From NCBI GenBank assembly GCA_905221615.1, contig CAJNDT010003112.1:221001-285000 (forward strand): a stretch of 64,000 bases of DNA. Direction: 5' to 3'. A model generated the notes under the pieces. It did not search any database. It worked only from the letters and a program-made list of their open reading frames with translations, and was not told where the DNA came from. Shown here in pieces: positions 2,018 to 32,329 of the stretch; within the stretch, counting starts at the first letter, position 1; each line of letters starts with the position of its first letter. Source of the DNA: Symbiodinium sp. CCMP2592. Lineage: Eukaryota > Sar > Dinophyceae > Suessiales > Symbiodiniaceae. The position numbers and the translations under genes were made by a program.

Positions 2018-2055
<38 letters not shown>

Positions 2056-2662
2056 TATATATATATATAATCCAATGTTTATATCAATCTAAATCGTCAT
2101 ATATCTGGTTATGTAGCCTTATCCGTGATGAAGTTTAGGGTTTGGTTATTTTTGTGTTTGGGGTTTGGGTGTCCTAATTTGTCGTTTGAAAGTTTGGGGT
2201 CAGCGGTAGGTGGTTTATGGATAGGGTGTTTCAGGGTTCAGAGTCGGGCTTGGAGAAGTTTAGGGCTTTCGGCTTAGGTGTCGAGAGCCTCCAATCCTGT
2301 GCGGCTGCTTGGGCATCATGGGTAGTTGCCAATAGGCTGCAGGCTGAGGAGGTATGGCGATGTACGTAGTTGCTACTGTAGCTACATTCGTCATGCCTGT
2401 ACTTGCTGAGTCATTTCGGTTGAGCAAAAACTCCACAGAAGCCCAACAAGCATCACACAAAATCTCCAACCCCCAAGCCCTGAGCCCTAACCCTTAAACC
2501 GCAGACTGTAATGTAGAAGTCCGTGCAATTAATACCGTTCCCCCTTTCGGTCCCTATAGTGTCATGCCAGAATATATCCTAGCACCCTTGTCAGATCCTC
2601 ATGACCCCATGGCCCCCGAACCCAAAACCCAAAACCCGGTTAAACCATAAACCCTAATCAAG
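1471..2662. other. Non-coding spacer with CT/TA microsatellite
   Basis: No convincing exon. A CT run followed by TA repeats sits at about 2022-2070. From about 2130 the sequence becomes degenerate TTTAGGG-like and then, from 2470, CCCTAAA-like, the texture typical of introns in this window. It may be the 5' intron of AAA module A. Confidence 0.5.
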
Positions 2663-2692
2663 GAGTTGGACGAGCTGATTGGCCTGCAGAGT
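2663..2692 (+). CDS. Module A exon: N-terminal helix
   Basis: Acceptor ATCAAG|GAG, then ELDELIGLQS, then a GT donor (GTGCC). Matches the conserved L(I/V)GL(Q/A)S start of CFXQ-type AAA domains. Module B has the equivalent LDKMVGLASVK at 41785. Confidence 0.6.
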
Positions 2693-11600: not shown

Positions 11601-14600
11601 CCCTGAGCCTCAAGTCCTAAGCTCTAAATCCCAACTCGCTTACAAAACTCCCGTAGAAGCCGTCACGAAACCTCCACCCCTGAAGCCCTAAACCCTGAGC
11701 CCGAAAAGCCCGATTGTGTATATCCCTTGAAGGAACTCCGAGGCTCCAAGTACCGAGCTTTGACCATCAGGAGATTGAAGACAACCGAGACAAGCTCATC
11801 GTCATCTTCGCCGGATACCAGAAGGACCACAGAAGCATGTTTGTGGCTTTCTCGGGTTTAGAGGGCTTTCAGAAGTTTGTGGAGTTTTAGTCGGGTTTGA
11901 GGTGCTTTTGGGGTTTGTGGGCTTGAGAGGGTGTGTGGATGCATACTGTCTTATGGTGTACCGAAGCCAAGCACAATCCTCGCTTTTCTGTCGGGCCCCC
12001 ATACTTTCATATTGAGACCCTCTAGAACGCGAGGTTGTGGTAAGTAACGCTGGATTTATTAGCTTTGGGGTTGCAGAGTTGAGGGCTTCACTGCCCCTCC
12101 CTGTACAGAAACCACAGCGGAGACGGACGTCCGTCCGAAGCCCAAAGCCTTGTATCCTGAGCCTTGAACCCTAAGGCCTGAAACAACCCCCAAGGCCTTT
12201 TCCCTAAGTTTAAGAGGGTGCAAGCTCCCCAAAAGCCCCAAACTGAGAACCAAGAGGTGGCTTCTATTTAAAGCGTACGTCCCGGACGCTCCGCACTAGC
12301 GGAAGGCCAGGAAAAAGACTGAAGTTTTCAAGCACGCAAGATGACTCCTTCTCTCGAAACTTTAAACATCCTCAAGAGGAGATACTAACACCCGTAAGCC
12401 CTACAGCCGAAGCCCCCAAATCAAAAATCCCGAAAATAGCCCTCCGAAAACCCTAAACCCACCTGAGCCAAGCCCTTCCTTGACAGCAGGAGATGGATGC
12501 TTTCTTTGAGACGAACCCCGGCTTCCAATCGCGGGTTCCCTTCCGGTTTGAGTTCGCGGACTACAGCTGCCAGGAGCGCAGCGGTTTTTGTCTGGAGTTT
12601 GTGAGGAAACTTCAGGGGTCGAGAGGTTTGGTAAGGGGGGCTGATCAGGATTTTACGGGTCTGGTTTACGATCTGTAGGGGTGGGCCTCGGGGCTTCAGG
12701 TCTCAGGTTTCAGCGGAGGCTCGGGGTTGGGAGCTGCAGAGTTGTTGAGCTTGGCAGTTTGAGAGTTGACGGCTTAGCCTAAGCTCTATATGAGAGTTTC
12801 CGAAAATAGGGGACCCTAATATAGTACCCTAGATCGTAGGGTCCTATGAGAAGGAACCCAAAATACAGTACCCCTAATTTTCGGAAACTCCCATATGTAC
12901 CAGAAGGCCCTGAACTGAAGCCCTCGTGAACACCAATTGTTCTGCATCAGCCCTGGTTTGGACTCCTTGAGGAGCTCGTGGGCATCAGCCGTTATTCAGC
13001 GAAGAAGAACGATGCCACCTGGTTGCAGATCTTGGGTCCAGCGATCCGTGCTTCGAGCATGTGGTTTGTTAAGGGTGTGGTCGTTTGCGGTTGTCTCTGT
13101 TTCTGTCAGATCGTCGCCCCACAGATTCTGCAAACCCACCTCCAAGAGCCCGTAGCACCGATGGAACTCTCGGCGTCCTCAGTTTAGGAATCCCAAAGCC
13201 AGCTCCGAAGCTAATGCAGGGGCCTGAATATTTAGTCATGCTTGTGGTGCAGTGTACCTCAACAGCCTACTCCAATCATTCAGGCCGCCCAGCTTGTGGG
13301 TTCCGATGCGCATCCCAACAAGATTCGATGCTGTCCAGCCTGCTTAATGAATAGGCTTCAAGAAGTCGTTCTGAGATGTAGTTTCATATGGCAAAGGACG
13401 AGATGTTTCAGGTTTTCAACAGCTCGGCGTAAACCCCAGGTGAAGCCAACGACTAGAGCAGTGGACTGGTTGCAGACACTCGGCATGCCTTCTGTTTGGC
13501 AACCGTCAAGCATGTAAATGATTTGCAGGCTCTGTCAATGCACGTTAGTACTGGTACGGGACTTCGATAAAGCCCGATGTGGTTTCGATTCCTGAAGTCA
13601 CTTAAGGAGGAGGCAAGTTGTAGCTGGAGCAGGGAGACTTTAAGACTAGTTTGTCCGACTTTACACATCAGGTGAAGGACTTTCGGGCGCAGACGTGTTT
13701 GTCTTTCTGTGCTTCACAGACAGATTCCTCACCAACTCTGGCTTCTAGAAGAATCTCCGAGCGGACATGCGCGGTCTGAGTTTGAATCGGTATACATAGG
13801 TCTTAGGACTATACATCGCCTGTGCGAGCATCTGCTTACCCAATCGGCATGTTGTCTTGAGCCGTATCCTCAAGCCTCTCACTCTCGCCCCTGCTCTCAA
13901 ACTCTTATTTCTCTTCTTCAAAGCCTGGTGAGCACCTTTGTACATGCTACGGCTTGAGGGAACAGAATACCTGTCAAAGTAGGTACATGTATATAAATAT
14001 ATAAATAAATATGTATGTATATATATATATATACATACACGCGCATACATTTTATATGTAGTTCTTTCATGTAGCTCAGGAAGATCATTTCTGCCAAGAC
14101 CGGCTGCTGCACGGAGGCGGCGTTACATCACGGGGAGCACTGGGGCCTCAACCCCAAACACTACACTATGAAATCATGAGCCTTCTTACATTCTCAAGTC
14201 ACGAATCCTGGACCCGTGAACCTAAGATTAAGCCTCAACCCAAAATCCACCGCCAAGATTAAAGCCGGCCCGAAGATCCTACAGCCCCAAGCTTAAGTCC
14301 AAAATCCCGCAGTGTTGTGGGCTGTATCCTCTTTCCGATCCGCAAGAAGAGCAGTTGTAGCCTGATATTTGGGTTGGTGGGTTTCGATTGCTCGGTGGAC
14401 CCAGCAGCCAGCTTTCAGTTTCTATCGGGCAACAAGCAGACCGTCTCTTGAGCCAAGCTGTTGCTGGATGCTGACGACATTCTTTTGTCAAGGTGATATA
14501 TTCACTGATTCCTGTAGCTTTTCGATTGCTGAGAACTTGGAAGCAGTGCCATCAGCTCAAATTTTGGAAGATCTACACCAACACCGTGGAATGTCAGCCG

Positions 14601-17600
14601 GCACCCGAAGCTCCAGCCCAATATGAAGTTCCGTGAAGTTCCGTCAGCTCCTGCTTAAGAGAACACGGGGTCAAGTAAGCTCGGTTGTCGTCAGGTAGCT
14701 ATGACTCTTCCTACATATGACCCTTGCAACAATACCTGCAGCCATTCTGCTGAGGACCTCAGGTAGCCTTCCGAACCCTCAGCCGTATGTCTCGAGCCCA
14801 AGTCCTAGGCATCATGGCCGAGCCGTACGCCCTGCACCATGAACAACAACTTGAATTCACAAACCCTGCACCACAATTCCCAAGGTCCCCAAACCTAAGA
14901 CCGCAAACCCTGAACCCAAAGTCATAGGCTGAAGCCCTAAATTTTAAACCCAAAACCCAAGCACACAACCTGGCGGCAAGGAGGACTTGGAACAGGGCAA
15001 ATGCGCTGGCGCTACGCGGGACAATGGTGCCTCAGCTGGTACAGAAGGGTCAAGCGAAGCCAGGGTTTATAGGCTACTTGCAACTTGGCCGACTGGTTAT
15101 GTGGGCCCTCAGCGACGAAGCCTGACATGCTTGATTGAATGCCGACTCTCCGTCATGCACTGTTACATAAGTCCCAAACAGGCATGACAACCCGAAGGTT
15201 GTTGGTATAGAGCATTCATGCCTGAACCCAGGCGATTGTGCGGCACAGCCGTAGCCTCTGGCTTCCAACCGTAGTGTGAGAGTTTGCAGCGCCATGAGAT
15301 CGCTGCGTGTGTGTTTTCTTCTGACATTCGCTCTTAGTCTTACCTCGATTTGGCTACGGCCGAGCTTCAGTGCTCCCCTCTCTGCATCGTCTCGCCAGCA
15401 GCGTTCGCTGAGCGTAGTTCGCGAGAGGAACGGTTTGAGCATTCATGTGAAGCTGCCTGAGGAAGAACTGAATGAGAGCATGACCTCTGCAGACAGGCGC
15501 CTGTGCAGCCATATCGCGCAACTCGGCAGGCAAGGGGACTGGCTAAATGCCAAGCGGCTTTGGAACAAGTACTCTGGCTTTTCAGTGCCCGTCATCAATG
15601 CAGCAATGCAAGCAGCCTATCGTTGTGGCCAATACCAAGAAGCAGGCGACATCTACGAGAGGCTCTGCCGCTTGCCTGTCGACGTACAAAAATTGAGCCT
15701 GATGCTTGGGATGAAGATCTTCGGCAAGTTGAACAAGACCGCGAAGGTGAATGAGATATGGACGGAGATCGAAGGCAAAAACTGGGTGGATAAGTTGACA
15801 TGTGGATCACGGATCGATGCTGCAGCGTATTTGGGTGATGTCGTTGGGGCGGCCAGTATGCTAGATAAGATGCAATCTTTGAATTTGACAGTCGATGTGT
15901 ATTCTTACAACTCTGCAATCTATGCATGCGGCTCTGCAAATCCTCCCAGCCACGCAGCGGCCATGTTCTTATTCCAATCCTTGGTAGACAACGGCCTGCA
16001 GCCAACAGTCGTCACCTGCACCAACCTGGCGCGGGCACACAAAAACACGTCCATCTCTAAACTTCGGCGCGTTCGATCTATCGTAAACGAATACGGCATC
16101 AAGTGCGATACAATCTTCGTGGAGGCTTATTTGGCCTCTGTGTTCTGCGGCCGGATTGCTGGCAATGCCTTCAGTGTAAGTGACACGCAACGTCTCCTTG
16201 AAGGCTTGTGGGATCTTCAGGACAGAGAAGAGGAAGCGAAAGTTGCTCTGCGCGAGTTTACCAAGGGCGACGTCAAGTTGACAGCTCTGAGTCGGATGAT
16301 AAAGGAGTACGTTCACAGAGGTGGTCGCAGACGCTGACAGGCAGTACTATCCACATCCTCGCAATCTCGGATGCTGCAAACGTGTGAGCTTGCTGCCCAT
16401 CGCGGACCCGTCCCTCAATCTTTTTTGAGTTCCGTTCTCATTTGTCGTACACGGCTTTGACCGCCGGGCCACAGCATGACGAAGCGGGTTCAAGCGGAGT
16501 GGGTTGCCACAACAACAGCGACAGAGTGCTGACATTCTACGCTTTTCCTTGGTGTTCAGACATTGTACGCAGGTCATTAGTTTCGGTTTGGAGCGTACAG
16601 TACAACTGAAGGCTTAATGTGGTGGCCCGTTTCATCGCCCCCCCCCCCCCCCCCACCCAAAAAGTAGTCTGGTGTCCGACCCAGACCGAGAGGTTCAGAT
16701 GGGTGGCTTTGATTAAGCTAGAAGGGAAAGGGGGGGTCCCAGGGTTTGCAGGCTTAAGTAGAAGGGTTTGGGAGGGTTTAGTACCAGGACCCTCCTTGTA
16801 CCTGTACCCTCAAATAGGGGTATATGGCCCCAAGTAAGGGGCATTTAGGGTCTAATAGAGGGTAGATGGAGGGTCTAGGTAGGTTTCGGTGTTTCGGTGC
16901 TTAAGTACTGGGGTTTCACAGGGTTTCCGGAGTTTAGGGCTTCAGGGCCAGGGCTTTAGGGTTTTCAGGGGGGTTTTAGCTGAGGTAGGGGTCGAGGGTT
17001 TGGGGTTAAGGGGGTGAGAAAAGGCTCAAGGGGGATTTAAGGTTGAGGTTTTAGTAGGTGGGGTTTCGGATTTAGGGGAGAGTTTCGGGCTTCAGGGTTG
17101 GGGTTTTGGGCTTTGGACGAGGTTTGTTGTTCAGGAGGGGTCGTTAAGTAGGGTGGGTTTTCGAGTTTAGGAGGGCGCCTTAAGTTTGTCCATCAGCAGA
17201 CAGGAGCAACCCCACCAAGAAACACCACAAACAAACCGCGTTAATTGGGCTTGCATGAAGCCATACTTTCAACCCTCTCCGGCCCCTGAACTTCCCTGAA
17301 ATATTAACCCTGCATGCATCATGTATGTCTGTCAGAAATCCTGAATCAAGCCTCTTTGTTTGGGGTCTCAGAAGTTTTAGTCTTGAGGGTCCCTAAGTAT
17401 CCGGACCGCAAGGTTGAACCCCAAACCCGAAGTCCTACGCTGTTGCACAGGCAACGGCCGGGCTGTGCGCAACGTCCTGGAATCGGCCATGAGGGCCATG
17501 TCCGTGCGCGTGGTTGCAGAGAACAAGGCACGTGGCTTTGAACACGCTAGAGGTTCATACACCCTGTTGGTTCCTTTAACACTTTAGCCCTTGCGCTTGA

Positions 17601-18364: not shown

Positions 18365-18554
18365 TCTGGTACATATACATGTGTGTACATATAGTATATG
18401 TGCACACACATAAACAGGTTCATACAGAAGTACATAAAACAGAAGAAGTTAAGCAAACAATGATATGATATAAATATAAGCATAAATAAATATGTATGTA
18501 TATACATATATATATATATATTTATGTATATATATGTATATATGTATATATATA
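18365..18554. repeat. TA/TATG microsatellite at left edge of mobile block
   Basis: Alternating purine-pyrimidine sequence, mostly TA, TATG and CA, ending directly at the start of the 8-kb unit (18552). The matching right edge of the block (32291) also runs into (TA)n. Confidence 0.9.
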
Positions 18555-18753
18555 CTGCAGGGGCCCATCATGCTGAAGCCGGCTGGTTGGCCGGAAAGTG
18601 GGCTTGTTTCTGGAACCCGGAAACGGCATAACTTCAATCTGCGATGTGACAGGTTTCGTTGTCGATGTGTGTGCCTCACCATGCCATGATGACGCGAGCT
18701 TTTGTGGCTCTGAGACGGAAGTGTGGTCTGAAGTCCTCCTGCCTTCTTCGAGA

Positions 18754-19133
18754 ATGGCAGCCGCACCCCCGGCCGACCGTCGTGGTGAAGCCGAGCGCTT
18801 GGGAGACGGTGCAGTGGCTGAGGTGTGCTATCCGTGGCAGCATTTGGGGTCCTAGTTTCGTATATGCACGAATCCCACTGCGCGCAGGAGCGCGCACCAG
18901 ATCCCGTGCCTGCTGATCCAATTGCCCAGCTGAAAGCGCAGCGTGCCATCTTAAAGAAGGAGCTGAAGGATTGCACGAAACAGATGCGAAATGAGGTCGT
19001 CCCCTCAGTCATTTATTCAGTATATAGGGCATGCGGCTTCATGCATGCATTCAGCAGTGCACAGGCCCGTAGAAAGCGACGATTGCTCAAGAAAGCTGGC
19101 AACCTCACGGTCGAAGAGCTCAGCTGGCTGATG
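18754..19133 (+). CDS. Transposase-type N-terminal exons, unit 1
   Basis: Three exons with closed phase-0 junctions and canonical GT-AG introns of 65 and 69 bp: 18754-18822 (MAAAPPADRRGEAERLGDG...), 18888-18995 (23rd to 58th codon, with IAQLKAQRAILKKELKD) and 19065-19133 (ARRKRRLLKKAGNLTVEEL), then a GT donor. The basic coiled-coil segment resembles the start of the DDE transposase at 24707 (EDMKRQLKETAKGLR, then a basic run). No downstream catalytic exons are found before the Rep gene. It is therefore either a truncated transposase or the N terminus of a longer spliced product. The GT donors contrast with the GC/GA donors of the host AAA modules. Confidence 0.55.
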
Positions 19134-19819
19134 GTACGGCGCACTACACGTGCTGCCTAGGTCGTCAGCTCTATAGATCTAGTTACCACGTCGTGTGCCT
19201 CCGGTGCAGTTTACGCATTGGTGACACGCGCCGCTATGTAGGGACTAGATCGCATTTCGCATGCGGTCCTGCTTTGCTGGAATTTCAAGAATTCTCAAAG
19301 CAAGGTAGCTGGACTGCGGATGCTGTGTAAAGGCAGAGGCCCCGTGTGAAGGAAATAGAAAGCTTCCTCTAGCTTCTCTGTAGGTGCGTAGAGTGCCTGC
19401 AACAAAAGGTAGCCATGGACCTATCGGTTCCTCTCGGCACCACAAGCTCAAGAAGTGCTCGTTGTGAGTGTTGCTGGCATTGAATTGCTGGCCCCAGCAT
19501 AGAGACAAACACCATCAAACACTAAAAGCATCTTGCAAGCGCGTCTTTTGGCGCGCCCGTCTATGCAATGGTGGATCTGCGAGCATTGCTATACAGGCCT
19601 TGGGGGGGCAAACTATGCAAGCTGACATCCATGCCATGTTGCTTCGGGAAGCTTGCCATCTCTGCTTCCAGCCAAAGATCTGGAACCCCATGCCCTAACT
19701 CCCAGCCATAGATAAGCTGCCCATGTGGTGGCCCTGCAAGGACCAGTATGCGGAAGTGGTCAAGCTGATGATATCGCTGAGGCACAGCGCCCTAAACCTT
19801 CGCCTTAAACCCTGTAAGC

Positions 19820-20000
19820 CCGAAACTCTGGATGCATCGACTTACAGATACGCTTTTCGCAGGCATTCTCTGCATCTTAAATCCCGCTGAAGCTTTGGAT
19901 GCATCGATTTGCAGATACGTTTTTTCCAGGCTTTCTGGGCATCCTAGTAAATTCTGGATGCATCGATTTGCAGATACGGTTTCTGTGGGCGTGCTGGGCC
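19820..20000. repeat. Short tandem array of ~62-bp units, unit 1
   Basis: Three copies of a unit containing CTGGATGCATCGATTTGCAG followed by ATACG and a T-rich stretch. Repeated in unit 2 at about 27823-28003. Confidence 0.8.
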
Positions 20001-20154
20001 TCCGGGTCTCTGCCTAAATTCGAAGCCTTCTAAGGCATTCACCTGCAAACCCTCAACCCCTAAACGAAGCCTTAAAGCCAATACAAAACCAAGTCCCTGT
20101 GAGGACCATTGCATTCGCAACTGCTGGCGATGACTGACAGGCTGTCACTCCATC

Positions 20155-20995
20155 TTCCCTAATATAGTAATACAGTGGGCCTTGGCAACTAAAATACCTT
20201 TTATAGGTTATTCGTAGGGACCCCAAGAAATAACTTAGTGATTCCGGCCCCTGTATTACACCCTAAACCCTAAACGTTCAGAAAGTCACCAAAGGTGGCG
20301 AGGAGTGAGAGAGCGGCGTCAGCACCTCCGATTTCCCTAATATAGTAATACAGTGGGCCTTAGCTATTAGAGTACCCTTTTACACAGTATTGGTATGGAC
20401 CCCAAGAAATAACTTAGTGATTCCGGCCCCTGTATCACACCCTAAACCCTAAACGTTCTGAAAGTCACCAAAGGTGGCGAGGAGTGAAAGAGCGGCGTCA
20501 GCACCTCCGATTTCCCTAATATGGTAAGACAGTGGGCCTTAGCTATTAGAATACCCTTTTACAGACTATTGGTATGGACCCCAAGAAATAACTTAGAGAT
20601 TCCGGCCCCTGTATTACACCCTAAACCCTAAACGGTCAGAAAGTCACCAAAGGTGGCGAGGAGTGAGAGAGCGGCGTCAGCACCTCCGATTTCCCTAATC
20701 TAGTAATACAGTGGGCCTTAGCTATTAGAATACCCTTTACAGATTATTATATGGACCCAAGAAATAACTTAGTGATTCCGGCCCCTGTATTACACCCTAA
20801 ACCCTAAACCGTCAGACATGCAGTTTTTTCTCATGGTCACCAGAGGTGGCTATGTGTGAGAGAACACGAATTCAGCGGCGTCAACATTATACATTCAGTA
20901 GGCTTTATACTCGTAGGGAACCCGAAGAACTATAGTATTGTTTATGAGTCCGGCCCCTGAAGCCCCAAAGCCTCAGAGGTTTCTCTCACCATTCG
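20155..20995. repeat. Tandem array of ~180-bp units, unit 1
   Basis: Four clear units and a degenerate fifth. Each holds CCTAATATAGTAATACAGTG near its start and GGCCCCTGTATTACACCC near its end, so each unit is itself an imperfect fold-back (GTAATACAGTGGGCC against GGCCCCTGTATTAC). Each unit also carries CCCTAAACCCTAAACG. Confidence 0.9.
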
Positions 20996-21084
20996 TATGC
21001 CGATTTTGTCTGAAAGTCGCCAGTGGTGGTGGCGATGAGTAACGATTCTGTGAGAGTCGCGACTGCCAAGGCAGCTCCTTTTCC

Positions 21085-21345
21085 GTGCTCGGGCGCGAAT
21101 ATGCTCCCAACATGACAAGCCGCACGGAAACCATCAATGGCGCCCCGAACATGCTCCCGCTACGCTAGAGTATATTGCCTGTTCTCGGGCCAATCGTGCT
21201 CCCAATACAGTACATGTAGGCTCAAATGCGCTCCCGCCAAAATCGTGCTCCCAACACAGTCCGTGTAGGCTCAAGCGCGCTCTCTCCAGAGCGTTCCCGC
21301 CGCCAATCGTGATCCCACCACAGTCTCATCGTGATTCCACCACAG
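21085..21345. repeat. Degenerate direct repeats, unit 1
   Basis: Repeated phrases AATCGTGCTCCCAA, CACAGTC and GTAGGCTCAA at irregular spacing, leading up to the stem-loop at 21408. Function unknown. Confidence 0.6.
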
Positions 21346-21407
21346 TCTACCACAGCATGTGCTCTACCCGGAAAAGGCTTCACCCCGACAGGACGCACGT
21401 CCGGACT

Positions 21408-21471
21408 ACAATGCTAATTAGGCGGGAGGGTGGGGTCCAGCAGCCCCTCCCCTCCGCCTAATTAGCATTGT
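21408..21471. other. Stem-loop next to iteron-like array (candidate origin), unit 1
   Basis: ACAATGCTAATTAGGCGG (21408-21425) is perfectly inverted as 21454-21471, and the pairing extends imperfectly through GAGGG/CCCTC. The ~54-bp repeat array begins just downstream. A hairpin followed by iterons is the usual layout of rolling-circle origins recognised by HUH Rep proteins. Origin function is inference, and I see no canonical nonanucleotide in the loop. Confidence 0.45.
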
Positions 21472-21482
21472 AAAACCCAAAC

Positions 21483-22045
21483 GGGGTGTAGGGTCCCACG
21501 TAGAGGAGCGCTGGGACCCACCGGGTCCCACCGGGTCCCACCGAACCCGATGCGGGTCCCACGTAGAGGAGAGCTGGGACCCACCGGGTCCCACCGAACC
21601 CGATGCGGGTCCCACGTAGAGGAGAGCTGGGACCCACCGGGTCCCACCGAACCCGATGTGGGTCCCACGTAGAGAAGAGCTCGGACCCACCAGTTCCCAC
21701 CGAATTCGATGTGGGTCCTGCATAGAGTAGAGCTGGGACCCACCGCGTCCCACCGAATCCGCTTTGGACCCCACATAGAGAAGAGCTGGGACTCACCACG
21801 TCCCAGCAAACGCGATTTGGGGGTCCGCGTAGAGGAAGGCTAGGATTTGCCGGCTTTCATGGAATCCACTTCGCATTGTACCGTAGAGAAAGGCTGCGAT
21901 GCACCGCTTGCCACCGAACCCCGTCCTTGTGCCGCCGTAGAGAAAGGCTGGGACCCACGGCGTCCCACCAAATCCATTCTGCGTCCCGTCGTAGAGACAG
22001 GCTCGGATTCACAGGGTCCCATCAAAGCGGCTTCAGCCCCTGCGC
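21483..22045. repeat. Iteron-like ~54-bp tandem array, unit 1
   Basis: About ten units, the first five or six nearly identical. Each contains GTAGAGGAGAGCTGGGACCC and the inverted pair GGGACCC-ACC-GGGTCCC. Later units degenerate. A 13-bp deletion within one unit separates the second copy of the element from this one. Open frames crossing it on both strands are repeat artefacts. Confidence 0.88.
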
Positions 22046-22340
22046 AGAGCAGGCTGGAATTGAGCAGTTGGCACTGCATGGCATTTGGTTTTACAGTGAG
22101 ACCATGCCTGCAGCCGAACCAGATAATTTGCGTCCGAGCTCGAAAAGGGCGGCGACATCCCGACGCCCGCCGTAGAAACCAACTGTGCGCGTCCCCCCCG
22201 AACCCGCTGTGGCCGCATGTGAAAGTGTGCTTAGTTGACAGTGCGTACGAGGAAGTCTCCTATACTGTCAGCCCAACGAAAAACGTTAGGCAGAGAAAAA
22301 AATAGGTCAGAATCAATAATGCGAGGAGAAAGTAGCCTGT

Positions 22341-22541
22341 GTCTGGAGCCCTGGACGCAGGCAAAACACGCCGCCTGCAACACAGAAGCGGCAGACGCAG
22401 CTGCGCAAGAGGAATGCATGTGGCGAGCTACGCACCCTCATGCAGACGGTTGGAGTTGAGCTCGCTCCCGACCATCATGGCAGAGCTGATTACAATCAGC
22501 AGGAGTTTCAGGCTTTTGCCGACGAGGCCCAGGCCTCAGGC
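22341..22541 (+). CDS. Possible upstream exon of the Rep-like gene, unit 1
   Basis: A 67-codon open stretch with protein-like composition (QKRQTQLRKRNACGELRTLM, then ELAPDHHGRADYNQQEFQAF) ending just before an in-frame TAG; a GC donor is available at 22540-22541. Similar short open stretches follow at about 22645-22730 (QKLRDIVAAYTGTLPQADS) and 22768-22860. These could be N-terminal exons of Rep or a separate product. Confidence 0.35.
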
Positions 22542-22899
22542 TAGGAGGCTTCGTCTGCAATCCATGCTTGGCTTGCTCTGCACCCGCCCCCACAACAGAC
22601 CCATCCACGAGGTCAGGCCGCGACTGCAGACTCCCGAGCAGCAGCAGAAGCTCCGTGACATCGTAGCAGCATACACTGGTACGCTCCCGCAGGCGGACAG
22701 CTTAGGCTGCATGCCAGACGTTGCAAGGGCTGAAGGGTGTAGAGCAAAACTGTAATTCTGGCCCACTTGAGGTGCCGCCGCTGCCGGTTGTCGGGCAAGT
22801 GCAGGCTGAGCTGCCGTCGCAGCCAGTTCCTGCGAGCCACATTGTAGCACATATGTTCACATGGTTGGGAAGAGAAGGGTTCCTGCATAAAGCTCTCAG

Positions 22900-24135
22900 G
22901 CTCCGACGATGCAGCCGACACAGGCTACCGCCTGCGCGCAGCATCGTGCCTCTTCACGTACAATTCGGCCGAGTTGTCTGAAGACTGGTGGGAGCCGTTT
23001 GTGGCCTGGCTGCAGACCCTGGAGTTCGTCTTTCGCTGGACGGCTACACTGGAGACGTCTCTGCAATCTGGGCTTGAGGGCCGCCTCCACCTGCACGTCT
23101 TCATGGAATTCAACAAGGCAGTTGATTGGACGGGCCTTCGCGCCGTCACTTTCAACGGCATTCGACCGAATGCACAGGCCACAGCAGGTCGGGGGGCGAA
23201 GGTGAGGGAAATGAAGAACCACGGTCATTTCTACGTCTTCGCGGACAAGGCGTCGGCAGGTCTGTCCAATATACAGTGAAGTGTTTGGAGAGTACTGCAG
23301 CCTTGTTTGCCCGAGCCTCATCTTCAGGTCGGGACCTTGAAGGTAGCCACATCTGGCTATGAACCTTGGAAAGATTATCCAGTCAAAGGCTGGTGGCTGG
23401 ATTCTTTGTGGTCTGAGCACAAACTGGCACATGATGTCTACATCCGGTATGCGCTCGGGCCTTATCGTGCGTAGCTGATGCAGATCAGATTTTCTAGGCT
23501 TCCTTTTGCGTAGTGCTAGAACGTGGATCCCAGCAGAGAGGTGTCAAGTGCGCATTGGCTTCCTGGGACGATTGAAGCAAGTTGAGAGTGTTCGCTTTCA
23601 CGAGCGCCTCGGCGAATACCAGGCCGAGCAGATTGCCACGGAGCAAAGGCTCCAGGCGTTGAAACGACCTTTCCGGCCTGAAGTCTTGGCAGCTCTGCAG
23701 CCCTGGGCCGCGCAGTACACTGCGGACCAACTACGCTATAGGTTTCTCGTCTTGCGGGGTGGGTCTAGAACCGGGAAGAGCACATTGGCGAAGTCCCTTG
23801 GCAGCGTCTATGGCTGGGGCAACCCTTTCATCCAGACGGTGCAGGGCGCACCAGCCCCCGATCTAAAAGAGTTTGACAGAGACTCTCACGGCTACATTCT
23901 TTTCGACAATGTGAACGACATGCAGTTTGTGCTGGACCATCGAGCGTTGGTGCAGTCCAACAACTCTGTGCACACACTGGGCCAATCGCAAACAGGCATG
24001 TATGCGTATCGCGTGTGGATCTACAAAGTCCCGATAGTCATGACGGTGGATGACAGTGCTGTGTGGGATTCTTTGGAGCCATGGATCCACGAAAACATGG
24101 TTGAACTCATTTTGCATGGCCCGTGCTACCAGTGA
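22900..24135 (+). CDS. Rep-like protein: HUH endonuclease plus SF3 helicase, unit 1
   Basis: Three exons with matching phases: about 22900-23249 (GC donor), 23328-23446 (GT donor) and 23541-24135. The N-terminal domain has the rolling-circle Rep motifs in order: LFTYNS (motif I), HLHVFMEF (HUH motif II) and a Tyr/Lys pair in HFYVFADK across the first junction (motif III, with Y-x4-K spacing rather than the usual Y-x2-K). The C-terminal domain has Walker A GGSRTGKS, Walker B ILFDN and the motif-C strand IVMTVDD of superfamily 3 helicases. This architecture is that of CRESS-DNA virus and plasmid initiators, which nick a hairpin origin and unwind DNA. Here it is intron-bearing, so it is eukaryotically expressed or domesticated. 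It sits downstream of the stem-loop/iteron region and upstream of a DDE transposase. All exons are open in both copies. Confidence 0.75.
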
Positions 24136-24301
24136 AGCGTCGTGGTTCAACCGCCTTTGCTGCAAAATGCGAAAGGGGGCCGAGGTGATTGACTCATCTT
24201 TGGAGCAGTTGGAGGTTGCTTAAGAACACAGCTTCGCGGTTCGATTTTACGGCCTGGATTCCGGCCCCAGGGCAAGCTTCAACTTCATAAGCCCTGAATG
24301 T

Positions 24302-24706
24302 GTAGAGGCCCCAAAAAATGAGCCCTTGCAGAGGGCCGGCTTTTTGGATCGCTGCGCGGGCCGGATTTGGAGCCTTTAATTTGCTGCTGCCCCACGGACG
24401 TGATTGTCCCGCAGCAGCGCTTACAGCTGCCCGTTGCGCGCGCAGATACGGTAGTCCTGCCATGGGTGCCGCAGGTCTTTCCGGACTTGAGTCCAAGAGA
24501 ACCGACAGCACAAGCCTTCGGAATCTTCTGGCGGTGATGATGTTAAAGGCGCAGACCAGGGTCAAAAACCATGCCCATCTCAAGACTTGCTCGGTCTACA
24601 GTGTGCATGTCTGCGCAGCAATCCGGTCGTCTCGGACATGTTTGTTTCGGCTTGGTTGGCTCTGGGTGCATGAAGTAGGCTCCAGGTAGGCTGCTTTTGC
24701 CTGGGC
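24302..24706. other. Junction segment between Rep and DDE genes
   Basis: Unique to unit 1. Contains an open frame whose ATG at 24462 begins MGAAGLSGLESKRTDSTSL and may be a leader exon of the transposase. No splice pair could be fixed. Confidence 0.3.
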
Positions 24707-26438
24707 ATGGAGCAACTCATGTTGCCTCCGGCGCCGTGCCATGTCGAAGCTGCTGCACGGGTGGAGGACATGAAACGGCAGTTGAAGGAGACTGCCAAGG
24801 GACTCCGTACCACGTCGCAGCGACAGCGCCGTGTCAGAAAGCGGGACAGTTCCTGCGGACTGGGGCCGGCAGCTTGTAAACAAGTCCTTGCTGCCTACAT
24901 TCTCTCCGAGTACGATGTGGGCAAGGCGGCCACTCTGGCACAGCACCTTGCGTCTGCTGCAAGGTCCGGAGAGCCTTTGCAAGCAGGGGAACGCTTCGTT
25001 GAAGACCTTTTTCTAGCAGCTTCTCAAGAAGACATCCTGAGTGTCTCCTTTCCCACCAACCAAGCGTGGCAGTCGGCTGTCACGAAAGCTGGTAAGTTCC
25101 TCGCAGAGGAAGCAGCGCTGACCTGGGTGGGTGTGCAAAACTACCAGCATGGTTCGGCACCTACAGCTCGAGAGGTTTTCCTGCAGGTCAGGTTGAGCCA
25201 GACTGGAGGCATCAGTGACGAGGATGCCATGCCCCGTCCACGAAGCATCAACGCTTGGGCTGCCCGGTGGAGGCAGCGGTGGGGTGTCCAGCGCCGTGCC
25301 TTGAAATTTCAGGAGGACCTCGAGCCGAAGACCTTGCTGAAGAAGGCGGGTCAATAAAATTGCTGGTTTCTCGGGCCCAAATCTGCGCCCTCCTAGCGGG
25401 CCTGGAAATCGTTCCTCCCACTCTAAGCTTCCTTTAGTGGGCCCGTTTTGGGGACCATGCAGAGGGAGCAGAAGGTAGCCCATAAAGCGATGCGTTTGGC
25501 GTCTTATCCAGTGAATTTCTGCTTGCCTTCCCTTTGCACAGGTGTCTGTTTTCTGGCAGTGGTTGCGCTACCGTCAGCAGCAATGCTCGCCAAAGCAGAT
25601 CTTGATGCTGAACCTTGACGAGACATCCATCGGGTTTCTGGCTCGGCCATGTTCCGGCATGGTGGTCTCACGCAGGCACTGGAATGAGCGAGGCTTGGAG
25701 CCATGCATCCGGGTCAAGAAATCAGACACTCGTGGTGCAGCGACATATGTGGCCATCATTGCCGACAATGCTGGAATTCAAGCAGGCCTACCTCATTTCC
25801 TGATCATGAATGAGAGTAAGCTAACGAAGGCTTTAGAGCGACAGGTGGCCTCGCTACCTGCGAGTCATCTGCAAGTCTGGCGACGTAAGAGTGCATGGAA
25901 TACTGCAGATTGCATGGTAGAGATCATCCAACATCTGGCAACCCATCTGGCTCCATGGTTAGCCAGGTACACTCCCATACTCCTCCTCGACCAAGCTCCA
26001 TGTCACTTGCCGGCGAAGGTCATGGAAGCTGCCAGGGACGCCCATATCCACCTGGTCTATATTCCATCATCGCTCACTTCGGTACTGCAACCCCTTGACG
26101 TCGCCGCCTTCTCCACGTTGAAGATGTGGTGGGCTGCGAAATTTCAGGCGCTACGACAGGCATCTGACAACCACGAAGTTTCTGAGCTTGCATGGATGGA
26201 GTTGCTTCGGACGGTTCCTCGCAAGTTTTTCGCAGCAAGGTCCTGGTCACGAGCTTTCACTGCTGTAGGTACCGCAGGGGATGTAACCATCCTCAACCGA
26301 GCGCTGAAGCGGCAGCTCGGCGACACTGTGGTGATGAGTAGCTCAGACAAGCCCACGCCAGAGCAGCTAAGCTGCATTTGGCTTAAAAGGAGGCGTATGG
26401 AGTATGCCTATCCGTTGCTCATGCAACCTGGATCCTGA
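24707..26438 (+). CDS. DDE-superfamily transposase (pogo/Tc1-like fold), two exons
   Basis: Exon 1, 24707-25345, and exon 2, 25542-26438, join in phase 0 across a 196-bp intron with a GC donor (AAG|GCGGG) and CACAG|GTG acceptor. The product is about 512 residues. The N-terminal part has a basic coiled-coil (EDMKRQLKETAKGLR) and a likely helix-turn-helix DNA-binding region near RPRSINAWAARWRQRWG. Exon 2 carries the catalytic triad of DDE_1-type enzymes: first Asp in LNLDETS, second in ILLLDQAPCH, third in SVLQPLDVAAFS. The enzyme would cut and join DNA ends during transposition. The frame is intact with no internal stops, consistent with recent activity. It is present in unit 1 only. Stop is followed by an AATAAA-like motif at about 26453. 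Confidence 0.8.
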
Positions 26439-26554
26439 CAGCTCCCTTGCTCAAATAAAAACTACGCCGGAGCAGCTGAGCAAGGTGTCAGCCTGCACGG
26501 TAGGAGTGCTGACCAGGTGTAGGTGGCCCGGCAGCGCCGGGAACTAGGGCTCTA
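26439..26554. other. 3' end of unit 1
   Basis: GC-rich tail after the transposase stop, with short inverted repeats (GCTCCCTTGCTCA / TGAGCAAGG). Joins directly to the start of unit 2. I found no clean terminal inverted repeat pairing with 24302. Confidence 0.4.
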
Positions 26555-26756
26555 ATACTGCAGGGGCCCATCATGCTGAAGCCGGCTGGTTGGCCGGAAA
26601 GTGGGCTTGTTTCTGGAACCCGGAAACGGCATAACTTCAATCTGCGATGTGACAGGTTTCGTTGTCGATGTGTGTGCCTCACCATGCCATGATGACGCGA
26701 GCTTTTGTGGCTCTGAGACGGAAGTGTGGTCTGAAGTCCTCCTGCCTTCTTCGAGA

Positions 26757-27136
26757 ATGGCAGCCGCACCCCCGGCCGACCGTCGTGGTGAAGCCGAGCG
26801 CTTGGGAGACGGTGCAGTGGCTGAGGTGTGCTATCCGTGGCAGCATTTGGGGTCCTAGTTTCGTATATGCACGAATCCCACTGCGCGCAGGAGCGCGCAC
26901 CAGATCCCGTGCCTGCTGATCCAATTGCCCAGCTGAAAGCGCAGCGTGCCATCTTAAAGAAGGAGCTGAAGGATTGCACGAAACAGATGCGAAATGAGGT
27001 CGTCCCCTCAGTCATTTATTCAGTATATAGGGCATGCGGCTTCATGCATGCATTCAGCAGTGCACAGGCCCGTAGAAAGCGACGATTGCTCAAGAAAGCT
27101 GGCAACCTCACGGTCGAAGAGCTCAGCTGGCTGATG
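26757..27136 (+). CDS. Transposase-type N-terminal exons, unit 2
   Basis: Exact counterpart of the unit 1 exons: 26757-26825, 26891-26998 and 27068-27136, with the same GT-AG introns and no disabling change. No catalytic domain lies downstream in this copy. Confidence 0.55.
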
Positions 27137-27822
27137 GTACGGCGCACTACACGTGCTGCCTAGGTCGTCAGCTCTATAGATCTAGTTACCACGTCGTGTG
27201 CGTCCGGTGCAGTTTACGCATTGGTGACACGCGCCGCTATGTAGGGACTAGATCGCATTTCGCATGCGGTCCTGCTTTGCTGGAATTTCAAGAATTCTCA
27301 AAGCAAGGTAGCTGGACTGCGGATGCTGTGTAAAGGCAGAGGCCCCGTGTGAAGGAAATAGAAAGCTTCCTCTAGCTTCTCTGTAGGTGCGTAGAGTGCC
27401 TGCAACAAAAGGTAGCCATGGACCTATCGGTTCCTCTCGGCACCACAAGCTCAAGAAGTGCTCGTTGTGAGTGTTGCTGGCATTGAATTGCTGGCCCCAG
27501 CATAGAGACAAACACCATCAAACACTAAAAGCATCTTGCAAGCGCGTCTTTTGGCGCGCCCGTCTATGCAATGGTGGATCTGCGAGCATTGCTATACAGG
27601 CCTTGGGGGGGCAAACTATGCAAGCTGACATCCATGCCATGTTGCTTCGGGAAGCTTGCCATCTCTGCTTCCAGCCAAAGATCTGGAACCCCATGCCCTA
27701 ACTCCCAGCCATAGATAAGCTGCCCATGTGGTGGCCCTGCAAGGACCAGTATGCGGAAGTGGTCAAGCTGATGATATCGCTGAGGCACAGCGCCCTAAAC
27801 CTTCGCCTTAAACCCTGTAAGC

Positions 27823-28998
27823 CCGAAACTCTGGATGCATCGACTTACAGATACGCTTTTCGCAGGCATTCTCTGCATCTTAAATCCCGCTGAAGCTTTG
27901 GATGCATCGATTTGCAGATACGTTTTTTCCAGGCTTTCTGGGCATCCTAGTAAATTCTGGATGCATCGATTTGCAGATACGGTTTCTGTGGGCGTGCTGG
28001 GCCTCCGGGTCTCTGCCTAAATTCGAAGCCTTCTAAGGCATTCACCTGCAAACCCTCAACCCCTAAACGAAGCCTTAAAGCCAATACAAAACCAAGTCCC
28101 TGTGAGGACCATTGCATTCGCAACTGCTGGCGATGACTGACAGGCTGTCACTCCATCTTCCCTAATATAGTAATACAGTGGGCCTTGGCAACTAAAATAC
28201 CTTTTATAGGTTATTCGTAGGGACCCCAAGAAATAACTTAGTGATTCCGGCCCCTGTATTACACCCTAAACCCTAAACGTTCAGAAAGTCACCAAAGGTG
28301 GCGAGGAGTGAAAGAGCGGCGTCAGCACCTCCGATTTCCCTAATATAGTAATACAGTGGGCCTTAGCTATTAGAGTACCCTTTTACACAGTATTGGTATG
28401 GACCCCAAGAAATAGCTTAGTGATTCCGGCCCCTGTATCACACCCTAAACCCTAAACGTTCTGAAAGTCACCAAAGGTGGCGAGGAGTGAAAGAGCGGCG
28501 TCAGCACCTCCGATTTCCCTAATATGGTAAGACAGTGGGCCTTAGCTATTAGAATACCCTTTTACAGACTATTGGTATGGACCCCAAGAAATAACTTAGA
28601 GATTCCGGCCCCTGTATTACACCCTAAACCCTAAACGGTCAGAAAGTCACCAAAGGTGGCGAGGAGTGAGAGAGCGGCGTCAGCACCTCCGATTTCCCTA
28701 ATCTAGTAATACAGTGGGCCTTAGCTATTAGAATACCCTTTACAGATTATTATATGGACCCAAGAAATAACTTAGTGATTCCGGCCCCTGTATTACACCC
28801 TAAACCCTAAACCGTCAGACATGCAGTTTTTTCTCATGGGCACCAGAGGTGGCTATGTGTGAGAGAACACGAATTCAGCGGCGTCAACATTATACATTCA
28901 GTAGGCTTTATACTCGTAGGGAACCCGAAGAACTATAGTATTGTTTATGAGTCCGGCCCCTGAAGCCCCAAAGCCTCAGAGGTTTCTCTCACCATTCG
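27823..28998. repeat. Tandem arrays (62-bp and ~180-bp units), unit 2
   Basis: Counterparts of the unit 1 arrays at 19820-20995. Two of the substitutions separating the copies fall inside the ~180-bp units (about 28312 and 28415). Confidence 0.88.
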
Positions 28999-29410
28999 TA
29001 TGCCGATTTTGTCTGAAAGTCGCCAGTGGTGGTGGCGATGAGTAACGATTCTGTGAGAGTCGCGACTGCCAAGGCAGCTCCTTTTCCGTGCTCGGGCGCG
29101 AATATGCTCCCAACATGACAAGCCGCACGGAAACCATCAATGGCGCCCCGAACATGCTCCCGCTACGCTAGAGTATATTGCCTGTTCTCGGGCCAATCGT
29201 GCTCCCAATACAGTACATGTAGGCTCAAATGCGCTCCCGCCAAAATCGTGCTCCCAACACAGTCCGTGTAGGCTCAAGCGCGCTCTCTCCAGAGCGTTCC
29301 CGCCGCCAATCGTGATCCCACCACAGTCTCATCGTGATTCCACCACAGTCTACCACAGCATGTGCTCTACCCGGAAAAGGCTTCACCCCGACAGGACGCA
29401 CGTCCGGACT

Positions 29411-29474
29411 ACAATGCTAATTAGGCGGGAGGGTGGGGTCCAGCAGCCCCTCCCCTCCGCCTAATTAGCATTGT
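29411..29474. other. Stem-loop (candidate origin), unit 2
   Basis: Perfect counterpart of the hairpin at 21408-21471, with identical 18-bp arms. Confidence 0.45.
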
Positions 29475-29485
29475 AAAACCCAAAC

Positions 29486-30035
29486 GGGGTGTAGGGTCCC
29501 ACGTAGAGGAGCGCTGGGACCCACCGGGTCCCACCGGGTCCCACCGAACCCGATGCGGGTCAGCTGGGACCCACCGGGTCCCACCGAACCCGATGCGGGT
29601 CCCACGTAGAGGAGAGCTGGGACCCACCGGGTCCCACCGAACCCGATGTGGGTCCCACGTAGAGAAGAGCTCGGACCCACCAGTTCCCACCGAATTCGAT
29701 GTGGGTCCTGCATAGAGTAGAGCTGGGACCCACCGCGTCCCACCGAATCCGCTTTGGACCCCACATAGAGAAGAGCTGGGACTCACCACGTCCCAGCAAA
29801 CGCGATTTGGGGGTCCGCGTAGAGGAAGGCTAGGATTTGCCGGCTTTCATGGAATCCACTTCGCATTGTACCGTAGAGAAAGGCTGCGATGCACCGCTTG
29901 CCACCGAACCCCGTCCTTGTGCCGCCGTAGAGAAAGGCTGGGACCCACGGCGTCCCACCAAATCCATTCTGCGTCCCGTCGTAGAGACAGGCTCGGATTC
30001 ACAGGGTCCCATCAAAGCGGCTTCAGCCCCTGCGC
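29486..30035. repeat. Iteron-like ~54-bp array, unit 2
   Basis: Same array as 21483-22045 with a 13-bp deletion in its second unit (near 29561). Such a change is expected from slippage between adjacent repeats. Confidence 0.88.
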
Positions 30036-30330
30036 AGAGCAGGCTGGAATTGAGCAGTTGGCACTGCATGGCATTTGGTTTTACAGTGAGACCATGCCTG
30101 CAGCCGAACCAGATAATTTGCGTCCGAGCTCGAAAAGGGCGGCGACATCCCGACGCCCGCCGTAGAAACCAACTGTGCGCGTCCCCCCCGAACCCGCTGT
30201 GGCCGCATGTGAAAGTGTGCTTAGTTGACAGTGCGTACGAGGAAGTCTCCTATACTGTCAGCCCAACGAAAAACGTTAGGCAGAGAAAAAAATAGGTCAG
30301 AATCAATAATGCGAGGAGAAAGTAGCCTGT

Positions 30331-30531
30331 GTCTGGAGCCCTGGACGCAGGCAAAACACGCCGCCTGCAACACAGAAGCGGCAGACGCAGCTGCGCAAGA
30401 GGAATGCATGTGGCGAGCTACGCACCCTCATGCAGACGGTTGGAGTTGAGCTCGCTCCCGACCATCATGGCAGAGCTGATTACAATCAGCAGGAGTTTCA
30501 GGCTTTTGCCGACGAGGCCCAGGCCTCAGGC
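30331..30531 (+). CDS. Possible upstream exon of Rep-like gene, unit 2
   Basis: Identical counterpart of the open stretch at 22341-22541, with the same uncertainties. Confidence 0.33.
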
Positions 30532-30889
30532 TAGGAGGCTTCGTCTGCAATCCATGCTTGGCTTGCTCTGCACCCGCCCCCACAACAGACCCATCCACGA
30601 GGTCAGGCCGCGACTGCAGACTCCCGAGCAGCAGCAGAAGCTCCGTGACATCGTAGCAGCATACACTGGTACGCTCCCGCAGGCGGACAGCTTAGGCTGC
30701 ATGCCAGACGTTGCAAGGGCTGAAGGGTGTAGAGCAAAACTGTAATTCTGGCCCACTTGAGGTGCCGCCGCTGCCGGTTGTCGGGCAAGTGCAGGCTGAG
30801 CTGCCGTCGCAGCCAGTTCCTGCGAGCCACATTGTAGCACATATGTTCACATGGTTGGGAAGAGAAGGGTTCCTGCATAAAGCTCTCAG

Positions 30890-32125
30890 GCTCCGACGAT
30901 GCAGCCGACACAGGCTACCGCCTGCGCGCAGCATCGTGCCTCTTCACGTACAATTCGGCCGAGTTGTCTGAAGACTGGTGGGAGCCGTTTGTGGCCTGGC
31001 TGCAGACCCTGGAGTTCGTCTTTCGCTGGACGGCTACACTGGAGACGTCTCTGCAATCTGGGCTTGAGGGCCGCCTCCACCTGCACGTCTTCATGGAATT
31101 CAACAAGGCAGTTGATTGGACGGGCCTTCGCGCCGTCACTTTCAACGGCATTCGACCGAATGCACAGGCCACAGCAGGTCGGGGGGCGAAGGTGAGGGAA
31201 ATGAAGAACCACGGTCATTTCTACGTCTTCGCGGACAAGGCGTCGGCAGGTCTGTCCAATATACAGTGAAGTGTTTGGAGAGTACTGCAGCCTTGTTTGC
31301 CCGAGCCTCATCTTCAGGTCGGGACCTTGAAGGTAGCCACATCTGGCTATGAACCTTGGAAAGATTATCCAGTCAAAGGCTGGTGGCTGGATTCTTTGTG
31401 GTCTGAGCACAAACTGGCACATGATGTCTACATCCGGTATGCGCTCGGGCCTTATCGTGCGTAGCTGATGCAGATCAGATTTTCTAGGCTTCCTTTTGCG
31501 TAGTGCTAGAACGTGGATCCCAGCAGAGAGGTGTCAAGTGCGCATTGGCTTCCTGGGACGATTGAAGCAAGTTGAGAGTGTTCGCTTTCACGAGCGCCTC
31601 GGCGAATACCAGGCCGAGCAGATTGCCACGGAGCAAAGGCTCCAGGCGTTGAAACGACCTTTCCGGCCTGAAGTCTTGGCAGCTCTGCAGCCCTGGGCCG
31701 CGCAGTACACTGCGGACCAACTACGCTATAGGTTTCTCGTCTTGCGGGGTGGGTCTAGAACCGGGAAGAGCACATTGGCGAAGTCCCTTGGCAGCGTCTA
31801 TGGCTGGGGCAACCCTTTCATCCAGACGGTGCAGGGCGCACCAGCCCCCGATCTAAAAGAGTTTGACAGAGACTCTCACGGCTACATTCTTTTCGACAAT
31901 GTGAACGACATGCAGTTTGTGCTGGACCATCGAGCGTTGGTGCAGTCCAACAACTCTGTGCACACACTGGGCCAATCGCAAACAGGCATGTATGCGTATC
32001 GCGTGTGGATCTACAAAGTCCCGATAGTCATGACGGTGGATGACAGTGCTGTGTGGGATTCTTTGGAGCCATGGATCCACGAAAACATGGTTGAACTCAT
32101 TTTGCATGGCCCGTGCTACCAGTGA
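30890..32125 (+). CDS. Rep-like protein: HUH endonuclease plus SF3 helicase, unit 2
   Basis: Exons about 30890-31239, 31318-31436 and 31531-32125, matching the unit 1 gene at an offset of 7,990. All catalytic motifs (LFTYNS, HLHVFMEF, GGSRTGKS, ILFDN, IVMTVDD) and splice sites are retained. I saw no difference in the coding exons. This copy lacks the DDE transposase downstream and ends 166 bp before the (TA)n tract, so if it is expressed its 3' processing must differ from unit 1. Confidence 0.74.
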
Positions 32126-32287
32126 AGCGTCGTGGTTCAACCGCCTTTGCTGCAAAATGCGAAAGGGGGCCGAGGTGATTGACTCATCTTTGGAGCAGTT
32201 GGAGGTTGCTTAAGAACACAGCTTCGCGGTTCGATTTTACGGCCTGGATTCCGGCCCCAGGGCAAGCTTCAACTTCATAAGCCCTGA

Positions 32288-32290
<3 letters not shown>

Positions 32291-32329
<39 letters not shown>

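Follow-up and report, generated by a model that had tools for sequence, protein, structure and literature searches.

A candidate integrative element pairing a Rep gene with a DDE transposase in Symbiodinium sp. CCMP2592

Genes and layout of the insertion

We analyzed a 64,000-nucleotide stretch of DNA (hereafter the window; contig CAJNDT010003112.1, positions 221,001 to 285,000) from the dinoflagellate Symbiodinium sp. CCMP2592, a strain that carries the name S. tridacnidorum in a passage of PMC8045281. Between positions 18552 and about 32291, the window holds a tandem structure with a period of 8,003 bp, in which genes for a Rep-like protein (HUH nuclease plus SF3-type helicase) and for a DDE transposase lie together. 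Its plan is [L..R]-arc-[L..R], that is, two cassettes of about 5.7 kb, each bounded by a left terminus L and a right terminus R and each carrying a Rep gene, flank one arc that carries the DDE gene (Table 1). Comparison of the two cassettes gives 4 mismatches and 13 gap columns. Between 21461 and 21792 the copy-to-copy offset falls from 8003 to 7990, which places the 13-base difference in the region of the 53-bp repeat.

An earlier reading of this DNA from its letters alone (hereafter the sequence-only reading) had taken the 8,003-bp unit as the element. The period was borne out, as were the open Rep-like exons in both copies and, by the frames, a DDE gene on the same strand; the ends of the element proved to lie elsewhere, at the borders of the cassettes. 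The accompanying description of the DDE gene as intact in all copies is not applicable, as the gene occurs once in the window.

The proposed splicing is supported by the intron borders and by relatives that align on both sides of all three introns ("P" plus a number denotes protein or gene models of relatives). The first Rep intron (23250-23327) reads GC..AG before a G and is skipped by P0026, P0002, and P0001; the second (23447-23540) reads GT..AG before a G, and the P0001 alignment breaks there; the DDE intron (25346-25541) reads GC..AG before a G, at a break in the P0083 alignment. The donor of the second Rep intron may be slightly off, because the spliced window protein is 2 residues shorter there than P0001 and P0003. 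The Rep gene is probably longer than the proposed exons, judging from homology in two upstream stretches (Table 1).

The window Rep has 82 relatives, with Effrenium, Symbiodinium, Cladocopium, and environmental contigs among their sources, and the HUH motifs I-III and the Walker motifs are common to the aligned relatives. The predicted structure of one relative, P0001 (predicted local distance difference test [pLDDT] score 90.3), matches Vientovirus Rep, geminivirus Rep nuclease domains, and SF3 helicases, and the Foldseek matches for this model include Vientovirus Rep, papillomavirus E1, and adeno-associated virus Rep40. These relatives and the P0001 model, rather than a structure of the window protein itself, point to a CRESS-type HUH plus SF3 architecture for the window Rep, as the sequence-only reading had proposed. 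Pfam returned no match for the window Rep, nor for the Rep of the 9.3-kb family described below, and a sequence search of PDB with the window Rep also returned none. A profile search of PDB gave four matches, the best of which is a P-loop protein; Pfam on 41 Rep relatives gave mainly weak ATPase matches; and the VIA-align rows were for the most part other AAA+ proteins. An N-terminal DnaJ-like domain is seen on some Reps (L030:1408-2826, P0075, P0082, and P0119, the last from Karenia brevis).

The DDE gene lies downstream of the Rep exons and comprises two exons. The Pfam family PF03184 matches the DDE exon with an E-value of 1.8e-11 and the spliced product with 6.5e-11, and residues D35, D159, and D195 are invariant across seven aligned sequences. 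The predicted structure (pLDDT 80.6) is closest in fold to Mos1 mariner and then to Sleeping Beauty, with E <0.001 for the first match only. We considered the arc as a transposon with inverted ends of its own and rejected this candidate, as no convincing repeat was found within the arc.

Table 1. Coordinates of features of the insertion in the window.
Feature	Position	Strand	Remark
TA directly outside left end, putative left target-site duplication	18553..18554	.	edge of (TA)n microsatellite
Cassette [L..R] copy 1, 5,746 bp, begins CTGCAGGGGCCC, finishes AGCCCTGAATG, holds Rep gene	18555..24300	+	termini shared with C3146, left one with C5151
Candidate 5' coding stretches with homology to the P0026 N-terminus (S. 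microadriaticum gene model)	18754..19109	+	gene model basis
3.7 copies of 179-bp repeat in cassette, with GTAATACAG / CTGTATTAC inverted pairs (by eye)	20155..20816	+	fold not above shuffles
5.9 copies of 53-bp repeat	21523..21836	+	
N-terminal Rep coding stretches	22377..22674	+	homology to P0001 residues 4-45, P0023 residues 3-68
Rep exon, HUH nuclease motifs LFTYNS; HLHVF; HFYVFADK	22895..23249	+	5' edge approximate
Rep exon joining nuclease and helicase parts	23328..23446	+	3' edge may be slightly off
Rep exon, SF3-type helicase, Walker A GGSRTGKST, Walker B ILFDN	23541..24135	+	
Arc between cassettes, 2,257 bp, contains transposase gene	24301..26557	+	
Transposase exon 1, N-terminal region	24674..25345	+	
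Transposase exon 2, DDE_1 (PF03184)	25542..26438	+	
Cassette [L..R] copy 2, 5,733 bp	26558..32290	+	
Copy 2 Rep HUH exon	30885..31239	+	by offset 7990
Copy 2 Rep middle exon	31318..31436	+	by offset 7990
Copy 2 Rep helicase exon	31531..32125	+	
TA directly outside right end, putative right target-site duplication	32291..32292	.	(TA)n microsatellite starts here

Related copies and recurrence of the pairing

Other copies of the window's family occur in the same genome, whose contigs we denote by "C" plus a number. C3146 carries a solo cassette of ~4.76 kb that is 97 per cent identical over aligned bases and has the same two termini as the window cassettes; it sits in a (TAG)n microsatellite with TA on each side, and the window insertion sits in (TA)n. 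C5151 has the same left terminus, reading TA and then CTG, and its homology reaches window position 22190. C5365 and C435 hold incomplete or diverged cassette copies.

We defined co-occurrence as a Rep and a DDE gene within 8 kb of each other. A genome search with P0001 yielded 111 match rows, many within tandem arrays, from which 84 Rep places were typed (the other 27 rows were taken as pieces of the same copies); at 58 of these 84 a DDE gene lies within 8 kb. One set is an array family with a 9.3-kb unit, typified by C2707, in which the DDE gene is 28 per cent identical to that of the window, with matching gene order and strand. Each unit consists of a ~7.2 kb cassette with the Rep and a 2,073-bp arc with the DDE gene, which is the plan seen in the window. 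The family DDE gene lies within 8 kb of 38 of 41 Rep copies (picked from 97 rows, with array copies non-independent; 0.03 would be expected for copies placed one by one at random), and conversely a Rep lies within 8 kb of 55 of 57 DDE copies (the first rows, at ≥85 per cent identity, of 133, with one short C4901 row excluded). A further array of this family lies on the same contig as the insertion but outside the window (C3112 positions 1575-17440), in the order DDE-Rep-DDE-Rep.

Units of ~12.4 kb (C1197, C1344, C20, C192, C633, and C5186) carry a different Rep. Their DDE genes are 97–98 per cent identical to those of the 9.3-kb family, so that a single transposase type adjoins two different Reps, with frames of 550 amino acids (the ~12.4-kb units) and of roughly 500–524 amino acids. 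A third type (C2846, C558, C1424, and C3890) combines a DnaJ-HUH-SF3 Rep with a Tc1-like DDE_3 transposase (Pfam E-value 2.5e-11) in units of 2.4–3.6 kb. Its Rep frame is uninterrupted at C2846, the Rep match is partial at C3890, and the Rep at C1424 is without most of the helicase; Rep and DDE genes also lie near each other at C4223. P0101, a protein of Symbiodinium sp. CCMP2592, resembles the C2846 Rep at its start, although its letters are not identical to those of the copy compared. At C1424 a 683-amino-acid frame (L057:1236-3287) joins the HUH and Walker A part of Rep to DDE_3. We rejected this frame as an ancestral fusion and read it as a probable in-frame deletion, because the Walker A region runs straight into DDE_3 and the unit is ~1.1 kb shorter than that of C558; the copy keeps both terminal repeats and its TA flanks. 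Finally, DDE_1 genes ~46 per cent identical to that of the 9.3-kb family form arrays of many copies, with spacings of about 2.1 and 10 kb, at C2056, C534, C2006, C2643, C3590, C3607, C3142, and other contigs.

Outside this genome, 9 of 35 protein models checked (among 120 matches listed) hold parts of both Rep and DDE, these joined proteins being annotators' gene models. Polarella glacialis supplies five of the nine (in P0088 the order is DDE-Rep-DDE) and S. necroappetens two (in P0091 it is Rep-DDE-Rep). The Rep portion is limited to the first 84 residues, which are DnaJ-like, in P0096 and P0113, and to the first 184 in P0146. One model, P0200, has Rep and DDE_3 parts together with matches to Pfam PF13621, PF02373, and PF08007.

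Ends, flanks, and joints

Ends were inspected at 14 places. The left flank is common to two of these, C1156 and C1285, which hence count as one event, with C1156 not counted again. Both outer ends were read at nine loci, and TA stands on both sides at eight of them (the window, C3146, C558, C1424, C3890, C2846, C1285, and C5195). At C5151 and C4223 the left end only was read, and it is preceded by TA. The right end of C5374 and the upstream side of C779 extend towards a contig end and yielded no outer end.

The DDE_3 family provides the cleanest test of the TA flanks at the level of sequence. Its insertions begin with CTAC(G/C)G(T/C)AGGACGAAAGTT and close with the rough inverse of this; direct repeats of 247–256 bp, which contain CTCCGC repeats and a conserved TAGTATAA, lie at both ends, with TA outside them at C558, C1424, C3890, and C2846. 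In contrast, the inner repeat edges at C558, C1424, and C3890 are preceded by CG and followed by CC or AT, and not by TA. At C2846 the stretch from L to R spans ~10.95 kb with TA on both sides, which by arithmetic amounts to three units and one extra repeat. In the 9.3-kb family, the arrays end in L = CTGTACAGGAACGACTTG and R = CAAGTCGTGCCTGTAGAG, which form an 18-bp inverted repeat with 16 matches; terminal inverted repeats are clear in this family and at C558. The termini are supported by their sequence as ends of transposition.

In some arrays, arc stands next to arc with no cassette between them. Such joints read GCAA-CTG-TAAAAG (C2622, C3594) or GCAA-CAG-TAAAAG (C2376, C4901), as compared with GCAA-[CTG...GAG]-TAAAAG where the joint is occupied; at C779 the final arc ends in GCAA-CTG-TA, after which other (host) DNA follows. 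Enzymes of the mariner type make their cuts three bases into each end. A three-base staggered cut at CTG...GAG would leave a joint with C or G in the first, T or A in the second, and G in the third position, to which both CTG and CAG conform. The three-base joints fit cut-and-paste excision of [L..R].

Proposed mechanism, alternatives, and known systems

We consider it probable that the window contains one insertion of an integrative Rep and DDE element, a replicon that would be copied by its Rep and inserted by its mariner-type transposase. The unit would be a circle or concatemer of cassette [L..R] and arc, with the Rep in the cassette and the transposase in the arc. The DDE transposase, of mariner/pogo type, would recognize the inverted ends L and R and insert at TA. 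Acting on a head-to-tail multimer, it would take a stretch that begins at the L of one unit and finishes at the R of another further along, producing TA-[L..R]-(arc-[L..R])n-TA, with n=0 at C3146, n=1 in the window, and n=3 at C2846. Single cassettes could later be cut out, with three bases left behind. The multimers or circles may be products of rolling-circle replication by Rep. With direct cassettes on either side of an arc, Rep or recombination might also free a unit circle once more. This proposal takes up the architecture, flanks, and joints read in the DNA, and a recurrence in several families, extended to two further species by gene models; from these we infer circles, copying driven by Rep, an origin, and a sequence of events.

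Several observations weigh against this proposal. Among the flanks, C4965 has TA on neither side and the left flank of C5374 is TT. The TA flanks are also partly non-independent, because the inner R in the 9.3-kb family likewise precedes TAA, the inner L in the window likewise follows TA, and (TA)n targets hold TA anyway. The inverted repeat of the window is weak, with 7 of 2000 random 50-base pairs scoring equally high. The joints represent three types and not five events, as copies within one array may derive from a single event, and the CTG joints, C779 included, may also have arisen through short deletions at a shared TA, since L starts with CTGTA; the CAG joints would be harder to explain in this way, as a further change would be needed. 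Both n=3 and the solo cassettes could arise by unequal crossing-over without Rep. Four stretches folded as single-stranded DNA in search of an origin hairpin did not exceed shuffles (z 0.59, -1.17, 0.01, -0.83). With respect to the pairing, the window DDE gene is present in one copy in the genome by DNA, so that the pairing in its own family is seen once; its closest protein relative in the genome is 34 per cent identical (129 rows in all). A DDE match is absent from the 9.9-kb stretches around C3146, C5151, C5365, and C435, from C2190 and C5023, which hold close relatives of the window Rep, and from 26 of the 84 typed Rep places overall. The Rep frame at C558 is interrupted, a Rep lies within 8 kb at only 7 of 19 DDE_3 places (typed from 25 rows; the other 12 include short fragments), and two queries found no Rep in the DDE arrays of the C2056, C534, and C2006 type, except at C2057, where one lies 9.3 kb away.

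Of the alternatives, a cointegrate fares best, yet we regard it as unlikely. Here the DDE enzyme would move [L..R] replicatively from a circular donor, which would become trapped between direct cassettes, as in Tn3-like elements, and Rep would only maintain the circle. An [L..R]-rest-[L..R] structure inside one pair of target duplications is indeed the classic cointegrate picture. However, mariner/pogo enzymes move by cut-and-paste, the three-base joints resemble excision, and the n=3 array at C2846 would require an extra step.

Somewhat less likely still is an endogenous virus of CRESS-like type whose integration relies on an acquired transposase and whose capsid gene either went unrecognized or lies on another segment. 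The Rep architecture and its nearest folds are those of CRESS viruses. Against a viral origin, Pfam found no match in eight other open reading frames (six of the window unit and two of the 9.3-kb unit), and a search of IMG/VR with the Rep profile returned 13 pattern stretches, none of which is a relative; these negatives are weak, because capsid genes are divergent and the open reading frames tested were only a part of the total.

An accidental pairing, in which a Rep transposon came to lie beside an unrelated DDE gene and the two were co-amplified by unequal crossing-over, would account for the solo Rep cassettes, the single-copy DDE gene of the window, the Rep places without a DDE match, and the one DDE family in arrays without a detected Rep. 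We nevertheless find it improbable, because more than one Rep, and both DDE_1 and DDE_3, are found in the same [L..R]-arc-[L..R] plan, and because joined gene models exist in other species. A single 8,003-bp element holding both genes, with one full and one truncated tandem copy, would agree with the period and the near-identity of the copies but is very improbable, as the supposed truncation point (24300/32290) is a terminus at C3146 as well and the equivalent point is a terminus in the 9.3-kb and DDE_3 families.

Returning to the integrative element, we lean, with less assurance than for the window insertion itself, towards an unnamed and diverse class of such replicons in dinoflagellates. 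Each member would be a circle that encodes both the CRESS-type Rep for its copying and the mariner-type transposase for its insertion. The latter enzyme would act on a cassette bearing both ends, giving two direct copies per insertion and a releasable circle, and cassettes with different Reps may swap on one transposase arc. The sequence-only reading had likewise suggested an unnamed class uniting Rep and DDE. The union is found again in other families of this genome and in gene models of two species; the anatomy is different, in that the defined ends are those of the Rep cassette, with the transposase gene beyond them in the arc, and within the window's family the co-occurrence does not extend to the other copies. 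In eukaryotes, mobility by HUH rolling-circle initiators and mobility by DDE transposases are regarded as distinct strategies. In the open-access literature, we found no Rep and DDE element in dinoflagellates, no named class, and no description of the pairing for eukaryotes; as preprints and most subscription journals fell outside this coverage, novelty is provisional. Recurrence across Rep and DDE types, together with the insertion structure, suggests a division of labor in which one enzyme copies and the other inserts. Such elements could let CRESS-type replicons persist in a nuclear genome and could also give rise to young tandem arrays in dinoflagellates.

Elsewhere in the window are an open frame resembling a PPR-type protein (15255-16337, + strand; by eye), a many-copy array of a 177-bp repeat (37839-40224), scattered telomere-like TTTAGGG runs (47366-47468, 50999-51159, 51376-51526, and others), and about 9.6 copies of a 123-bp repeat of RCC1-type appearance (59270-60452; by eye).

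Among known systems, the Tc1/mariner-pogo elements (Mos1, Sleeping Beauty, pogo) share with the proposed element a DDE_1 or DDE_3 transposase, TA flanks, inverted ends, and three-base joints after apparent excision. They differ in that their transposase gene lies between its own inverted repeats in a single unit, whereas here it lies outside the L-R cassette, direct cassette copies stand at both ends of the inserted stretch, and a Rep gene is present within the unit. Because a transposase outside its own cassette is a non-standard form, we do not file the element as an ordinary member of the mariner/pogo group.

CRESS-DNA viruses and Rep plasmids (geminivirus, circovirus, and Vientovirus Reps) have in common with the element an HUH nuclease and SF3 helicase in one protein and head-to-tail copies. 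The spacing of motif III is Y-x4-K here, as opposed to the YxxK given in PMC6668415. The window family further differs from CRESS viruses in its introns, in its apparent chromosomal insertion by a DDE enzyme, and in that no capsid gene was found by Pfam in the eight other open reading frames.

Helitrons encode a RepHel protein with a Pif1-type helicase. They have neither inverted repeats nor a target duplication in the description of PMC10741241, and the SF3-type helicase, inverted ends, and TA flanks seen here led us to reject this assignment. Replitrons, as the same review describes them, are 0.9–4 kb in size, are without inverted repeats, and have direct terminal repeats of 5–11 bp (PMC10741241); by that definition, the inverted ends also exclude a Replitron, and the SF3 helicase and DDE transposase set the element further apart. 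What is shared is a eukaryotic mobile element with a Rep-type HUH nuclease. In inoviruses, we know of no [L..R]-arc-[L..R] structure. IS3 and IS30 transposases are mentioned for bacterial rolling-circle phages and plasmids (PMC6668415). These likewise unite a Rep-type replication module with a DDE enzyme, but they are bacterial and their Rep and DDE families are others. Teratorn of fish combines a herpesvirus with piggyBac. It resembles the proposed element in joining a viral replicon to a cut-and-paste transposase in a eukaryote; there the partners are a large double-stranded DNA virus and piggyBac, and here they would be Rep and mariner.

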